Assembly: GCA_938040095.1 (NCBI GenBank) | Contig: CALHXF010000088.1 | Span: 1 to 45,378 of the forward strand | Source of the DNA: an uncultured Caulobacterales bacterium | GTDB lineage: Bacteria; Pseudomonadota; Alphaproteobacteria; Caulobacterales; Maricaulaceae | DNA: 45,378 nucleotides | Reading direction: 5' to 3' | In this document: one piece after another, positions 38,265 to 38,302 of the stretch | Numbering within the stretch: position 1 is the stretch's first letter | How the letters are laid out: each line of letters begins with the position of its first letter | Notes under the pieces: model-generated | Database searches by the model: none | Told to the model about the DNA's origin: nothing | What the model saw: only the letters and a program-made list of their open reading frames with translations | Position numbers and translations under genes: made by a program

Positions 38265-38302
38265 GAATCCTGCTTGAATCTTAGATGATTCGTACAAGAT
38301 TC
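38265..38302. promoter_or_regulatory. Helically phased array of four GANTC sites before gyrB
   Basis: GAATC at 38265, GAATC at 38276, GATTC at 38287 and GATTC at 38298 are each 11 bp apart. The orientation (two of one, two of the other) makes the 38-bp array dyad-symmetric. The inner end lies six bases from the gyrB ATG and contains the Shine-Dalgarno bases. GANTC is the CcrM adenine-methylation site in this bacterial group, which suggests methylation-sensitive regulation; that link is inference. Confidence 0.6.

Follow-up and report, generated by a model that had tools for sequence, protein, structure and literature searches.

GANTC sites at described GcrA and CcrM targets

GcrA is a dimeric protein that prefers methylated sites (PMC3667746), and its domains and its stimulation of open-complex formation have been described (PMC7403470). 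At ctrA P1, GcrA covers -35 to +7 on fully methylated DNA and stretches of ~12 bases on hemimethylated DNA (PMC3667746). In Caulobacter crescentus, ctrA P1, ftsZ, mipZ, and podJ carry GANTC in or beside the core promoter, as we propose for the gyrB locus analyzed here; the ftsZ site lies between -35 and -10 and a mipZ site near the start point (PMC3708114). Targets with several sites also occur in that species, mipZ having two juxtaposed sites and the best GcrA-bound target, inside CCNA_00697, three (PMC3667746). A survey of 96 cell-cycle start sites with GANTC ≤50 bp upstream listed 108 sites, 11 of the starts having more than one (PMC4287350), which implies at most three at any start in a count that excludes GANTC downstream of it. 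The gyrB locus differs from these C. crescentus examples in having four sites, evenly stepped by 11 bp and spanning about -20 to +18, with one on the proposed -10.

The gyrB gene itself has been assigned to the GcrA regulon of C. crescentus and B. subvibrioides and named a conserved GcrA target, being conserved in 23 species and rated relatively likely to be under GcrA control in most of them (PMC7987155); the supposition in the preliminary description that control of gyrB by this system was unknown is thereby not upheld as worded. The same study gives an extended GcrA motif, YGAKTCK (best TGATTCG), for which GcrA-activated genes of B. subvibrioides displayed no preference (PMC7987155). It scored motifs at all positions between -200 and +100 relative to the start codon, and neither a fixed distance from the -10 nor a ladder appears in the available text. 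No phased GANTC array at gyrB and no fixed site position were found in the open literature searched.

Both genes of the CcrM/GcrA system ascribed earlier to Caulobacter-like bacteria are encoded in the genome under study. GcrA (PF07750) matched in 18 of 18 genomes of the genus; among 14 control genomes, this family matched Caulobacter and, unexpectedly, Sulfolobus acidocaldarius. A CcrM-type RAMA-domain methylase was found in 17 of the 18, the remaining genome being 65% complete, and Caulobacter alone matched in the controls. The methylase of the genome under study contains N6_N4_Mtase and RAMA domains and matches Caulobacter CcrM (6pbd) at 7e-159, although it scores 598 bits against the NCBIfam CcrM model NF050803, below the cut-off of 830. 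The GcrA of this genome gives a 1e-49 match to 7ye1, and in the DNA-binding part 39 of 45 residues are identical.

From these genes and the sequence comparisons that follow, we think it somewhat probable that the gyrB ladder is a core promoter elaborated as a multi-site target of CcrM and GcrA. On this reading it is a lineage-specific elaboration of a known promoter type and not a new kind of control.

A ladder of four GANTC sites upstream of gyrB

The window, the whole 45,378-nucleotide stretch of DNA analyzed, contains four GANTC sites 6–43 bp upstream of the gyrB start (Table 1). In the gyrB sense (minus strand), the leader reads GAATC-TTGTAC-GAATC-ATCTAA-GATTC-AAGCAG-GATTC-TATCA-ATG. A recount confirmed GAATC at 38265 and 38276 and GATTC at 38287 and 38298, with spacings of 11/11/11, and also the overlap of the innermost site with the Shine-Dalgarno bases, AGGA at 38271-38268 sharing bases with site 4. 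The claim that all sites face one side of the helix is roughly right for 11-bp steps but not exactly so, given ~10.5 bp per turn. Only site 2 fits the extended GcrA motif YGAKTCK (best TGATTCG); sites 1, 3, and 4 do not.

Table 1. Features at and around the gyrB leader in the window.
Feature	Position	Strand	Remarks
gyrB, DNA gyrase subunit B	35827..38259	-	ORF, 810 aa; NF011501 1231 bits, TIGR01059 963 bits, both above cut-off
GANTC site 4	38265..38269	-	GATTC, ~+14 to +18; at the family-wide single-site position
Shine-Dalgarno-like AGGA	38268..38271	-	within the ladder; from sequence
GANTC site 3	38276..38280	-	GATTC, ~+3 to +7
GANTC site 2	38287..38291	-	GAATC; heptamer CGAATCA = TGATTCG on the other strand; overlaps the proposed -10
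Proposed -10, TACGAA	38289..38294	-	17 bp past the -35 (family spacer); weak
GANTC site 1	38298..38302	-	reads GAATC on the gyrB strand; between the proposed -35 and -10, ~-20 to -16
38-base inverted repeat	38265..38302	-	as RNA, 9 + 5 bp fold over the Shine-Dalgarno bases
Proposed -35, TTACAA	38312..38317	-	homologous to the family CGTGCATT/CTTACATT element
Second hairpin, GGCACGCC...GGCGTGCC	38303..38336	-	overlaps the -35, adjoins the ladder
Upstream DUF481 gene	38378..39118	-	same direction as gyrB; PF04338, 164.9 bits

The preliminary description had assumed one GANTC in about 256 bases; the window holds 100, ~1 per 454 bases, half the mean of 198 in dinucleotide shuffles. Its view that four spaced sites lie far from chance was upheld, as 0 of 1000 such shuffles placed four sites at equal intervals, for all intervals of 5–40 bp, and 21 of 1000 had any four within 33 bp, in sequences carrying twice the real GANTC density. 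In the real window, four GANTC fall within 33 bp at one place only, and widening the span to 60 bp adds no other. Four GANTC also fall within ~100 bases at 25597-25697, unphased and inside a coding region. Across the assembly (2,711,905 bases in 214 contigs, 79% complete), GANTC-N6-GANTC-N6-GANTC was found only at the ladder, as two overlapping matches, and ~0.002 cases of four equally spaced sites are calculated to arise by chance in 2.71 Mb at this GANTC density. Since equal spacing never appeared in the shuffles and the three-site form occurs nowhere else in the assembly, simple chance is excluded as the origin of the ladder.

To follow the ladder through the family, we used 137 genomes; at E 1e-70, gyrB was recovered from 121 of them and missing from the other 16. 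The genomes of the genus without gyrB in this set are G001, G002, G008, G010, and G011. A script searched the upstream regions of all 121, and 90 of these regions, with part of the other 31, were also inspected by eye; L131, a duplicate of L015, was excluded. The exact four-site ladder is present in four regions, those of the window genome (L003) and of G007, G009, and G013 (together L004–L006), and absent from the remaining 117 within the 155 bases examined. Smaller GANTC groups 5' of gyrB were observed in two regions: L172 has three sites at 13-bp steps, farther from the gene, and L264 has a pair separated by 11 bp. A DNA search of the 137 genomes for copies of the leader was blunt, since the ladder species G009 gave no match; among the matches listed, all those with E <1e-7 lie at gyrB.

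In a GyrB tree of 31 rows, L003–L008 form one clade with support 100/100. Within it, L008 (G012) retains only the two central sites, its outer positions reading AAATC and GATTT, while L007 (G016) has site 1 only. The ladder is thus not indispensable. L007 is the first branch of the clade (the fork below it has support 90/84), so its lineage may have lacked sites 2 and 3 from the outset. The comparison of gyrB upstream regions called for earlier favors the array in part, with three other species keeping it and two clade members having one or two sites. The array is a real feature, with conservation in one small clade.

In the four species with the ladder, 0 of 20 site columns vary, the free middle base included, compared with 8 of 18 spacer columns (Fisher P 0.0009, an indicative value given the relatedness of the rows and a by-eye count of variable columns). 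Site 2 has the heptamer CGAATCA in L003, L004, and L006 and GGAATCA in L005. These columns bear on the suggestion that the ladder is functionless turnover, in which one working GANTC is kept while extra sites arose and persist through short shared ancestry. The restriction of the ladder to four genomes of a single clade, together with the two members that do not have it in full, would suit such a history, yet the site columns stayed unchanged while the spacers diverged, and the chance expectation calculated above for equally spaced sites is very small. We regard turnover as quite improbable.

A LexA (SOS) operator, GTTC-N7-GTTC, is likewise a direct repeat with an 11-bp period. In the ladder the corresponding pattern is ATTC-N7-ATTC, each half-site differing from the LexA operator at its first base. 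The boxes of the genus have the form GTTC-N7-GTTC in 14 of 17 lexA-type loci and the ladder half-sites are all ATTC, and a LexA operator was rejected.

Immediately beyond the ladder, the second hairpin has a predicted energy of -22.6 kcal/mol for 38303-38345. Its arms covary among three species, that of the window with L004 and L006, and it is absent from L005. It has no T run, and a consensus scan made no terminator call; it could be a hairpin at the 3' end of the DUF481 gene. Elsewhere in the window, 29010-31919 (minus strand) encodes a 969-residue protein with the helical and N-terminal domains of an IMPa-type metalloprotease (PF18642, PF18650).

Across the family, gyrB usually has one GANTC ~19 bp past the -10

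GANTC occurs in 120 of the 121 gyrB regions (155 bases examined) and the extended motif YGAKTCK in 114. By comparison, GANTC lies upstream of 9 of 26 hand-picked other ORFs of the window and the extended motif upstream of 2 of 26, while lexA regions gave 5/14 and 2/14 (one region is misplaced, and 13/14 show a LexA box); the gyrB stretch extends into the first codons, and the control stretches stop short of them.

Promoters were located with a two-block -35/-10 model that is blind to GANTC, though seeded with motifs first spotted by eye, and that was run on the first 90 of the 121 regions. Sixty-six of the 90 scored >6 bits. A GANTC starts 16–21 bases past the -10 in 60 of these 66, against a background expectation of 0.5; the offset has a mean of 18.8 and an sd of 0.97, whereas the start codon lies at 6 to 87 with an sd of 19.5. 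The six regions with no GANTC at 16–21 are L007, L008, L132, L141, L161, and L162. YGAKTCK fits 55 of the 60 sites on one strand, 46 being exactly TGATTCG; of the five misfits, four are the ladder species, three of which carry the extended motif at site 2.

A second rule, a TA-hexamer ending 5–7 bases 5' of the ATG, called 55 regions leaderless, L162 included. With 64 model calls and L008 placed by homology, promoters were called in 120 of 121 regions, L143 being uncalled. Outside the ladder clade, there are 104 GANTC starts at 15–21 among 114 called promoters. The leaderless calls use the ATG to position the -10, and whether the site is independent of the start codon is therefore judged from two other groups. 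In genus g26, the ATG is at 6 and the site at 20 in 13 of 14 model-called regions, and in the leadered regions among the 60, sites lie at 16–20 with the ATG at 29 to 87. The distance between site and -10 is thus constant for a near or a far start codon, which assigns the site to the promoter. To our mind, this fixed distance is a firmer result than the ladder.

Many genera of the family appear to have a leaderless gyrB (55 regions among L147-L190 and L261-L291, plus most of g26). There, GANTC usually falls in codons 5–7 through varied residues (Thr/Pro/Ala-Asn-Gln, with other frames in L167 and L185). L270, L272, L288, and L289 keep the Asn-Gln codons without the site, and L272, L288, and L289 have GANTC at -14 instead; this persistence means that part of the conservation may be at the protein level. 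Rarer offsets outside the clade fall near other rungs of the ladder, at -14 (g16, five genomes), -4 (five genomes of four genera), and 6-7 (three genomes), a resemblance noticed post hoc and, for -4, partly forced by TAGANT-type -10 elements. Further rare offsets are -23 (five genomes), -20, 0, 12, and 24.

Beyond the family, CGAATCA or GATTCG was seen at gyrB in Bosea, Bradyrhizobium, Rhodopseudomonas, and Rhizobium (L052-L055, L057, L064, L066, L068, L081, L117, and L121). In the Rhodobacterales loci of that search, in which 79 of 80 loci were readable overall, the motif is mostly not near the gyrB start. Judging from sequence, the single gyrB site may be older than the order.

The fit of the family site to the GcrA heptamer also bears on whether the dyad could be the operator of a dimeric regulator other than GcrA or LexA, its match to GANTC being incidental. 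Across the six clade members, the columns that never change include AATC-(Y)-TGTA and GCAGGATT, which form a near-palindrome extending beyond GANTC, as an operator might. A -10 and a Shine-Dalgarno sequence would keep those same columns, however, and the 55 of 60 heptamer matches point to GcrA. We consider a separate operator very improbable.

Promoter placement, RNA folding, and a possible mechanism

Under a core promoter targeted by CcrM and GcrA, the ladder would be laid over the promoter elements. In the clade, the -35 reads TTACAT or TTACAA (GTGCAT in L007), the -35 block scores 6.7-12.9 bits across the six members, and by eye the element lies 9 bases ahead of the ladder position in all six. 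The -10 is TACGAA, except for TAGGAA in L005 and TAAGCG in L007. From the -10 end, the four sites start at -14, -3, 8, and 19, the last being the family offset; relative to a transcription start assumed 7 bases past the -10, they start at about -20, -9, +3, and +14. A model trained without the clade placed its best match at the proposed promoter in L004-L007, its second in L008, and its third in L003, the best match beating shuffles at 5% in L005 and L007 only. A scan for sigma-70 consensus promoters and terminators found nothing.

The clade combines a good -35 with a weak -10, the promoter being clear in relatives. The weak -10 may fit an activator-dependent promoter, and equally warns that the promoter may be misplaced. 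We also considered that TTACAAT is itself the -10, with the start just ahead of the hairpin; by eye no conserved -35 precedes it, and L007 has TGCATT at that place.

The 38-base repeat could also act as RNA. If gyrB is transcribed from further upstream too, the repeat would fold, hide the Shine-Dalgarno sequence, and tune gyrB translation or message stability, the GANTC sites being a by-product of its arms. Folding of 38250-38302 gave -16.2 kcal/mol (z -4.1), and the hairpin forms in all six clade members, with 16 pairs and a GAGA loop in L007 and 10 + 6 pairs and a GUAA loop in L008, so that it is kept in both despite fewer GANTC sites. The outer inverted repeat is likewise kept in six of six members, compared with four of six for the ladder. 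When shuffling was confined to the spacers of the four ladder species, 1.7 to 7.9% of the shuffles equalled the real sequence in folding; the pairing is thus slightly better than the sites alone demand. The single two-sided change, in L008, could speak for a selected stem, but one pair changed on both sides in six sequences was equalled by 160 of 500 shuffles. Moreover, a transcript beginning at the proposed start point contains only half of the repeat, with a fold of -5.5 to -8.5 kcal/mol, and a hairpin leaves the family-wide single GANTC at its fixed distance from the -10 unexplained. Rfam has no family in the window at gathering score, at E up to 10 giving just a 13-bit miRNA match on the opposite strand, and a known structured RNA leader was rejected. 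Regulation through this fold seems unlikely to us.

For a core promoter elaborated as a CcrM/GcrA target, the following sequence of events can be proposed. CcrM would methylate all four sites of the ladder. GcrA, whose N-terminal domain binds methylated GANTC and whose C-terminal domain binds sigma-70, could dock at a single helical turn or at several along one face of the DNA and help the polymerase to open the poor -10. Provided that the promoter is correctly placed, sites 1–3 would correspond to the -10/-35 spacer, the -10, and the start point. Passage of the fork would leave all four sites hemimethylated together, and gyrB output would then shift with replication more sharply than with a single site. 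The methylation-linked control of gyrB suggested at the outset is supported in part, by the presence of both genes, the ladder in three more species, and the family-wide site; its novelty as worded is not upheld.

A bolder extension, which we hold tentatively and think rather doubtful, treats the phased stack of four CcrM sites, one of them in the -10, as a cooperative methylation counter. GcrA would fill one face turn by turn, and gyrase expression would switch steeply at fork passage and at full remethylation; promoters with a single GcrA site ~14 bases past the start would, in addition, make up a general and overlooked class.

Supercoiling in front of the replication fork is set by gyrase. 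If the gyrB promoter responds to the methylation state that the fork leaves behind, gyrase supply would be coupled to replication. Related species with one, two, and four sites offer a natural series for testing site number and helical phase, and the fixed distance from the -10, kept even inside codons, places a precise constraint on how GcrA is seated on the polymerase.

The other gyrase gene has also been linked to this system, gyrA being among the genes lowered without CcrM and having a conserved GANTC (PMC3973325). In the same genus as the ladder, GAATC or GATTC lies between the likely -10 and the start codon of gyrA in 14 of 14 readable regions out of 16 loci (by eye), and no ladder is present in these 14, which include L244, L247, and L253 from ladder species; the gyrA upstream region of the window genome is cut by the contig end. 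The gyrA regions of L244, L247, L248, L249, L250, and L253 share a CTAGGTT -10-like element, a near-constant leader ending CGAATCGAGTGCTGAATGG, and one GANTC just 5' of the start codon.
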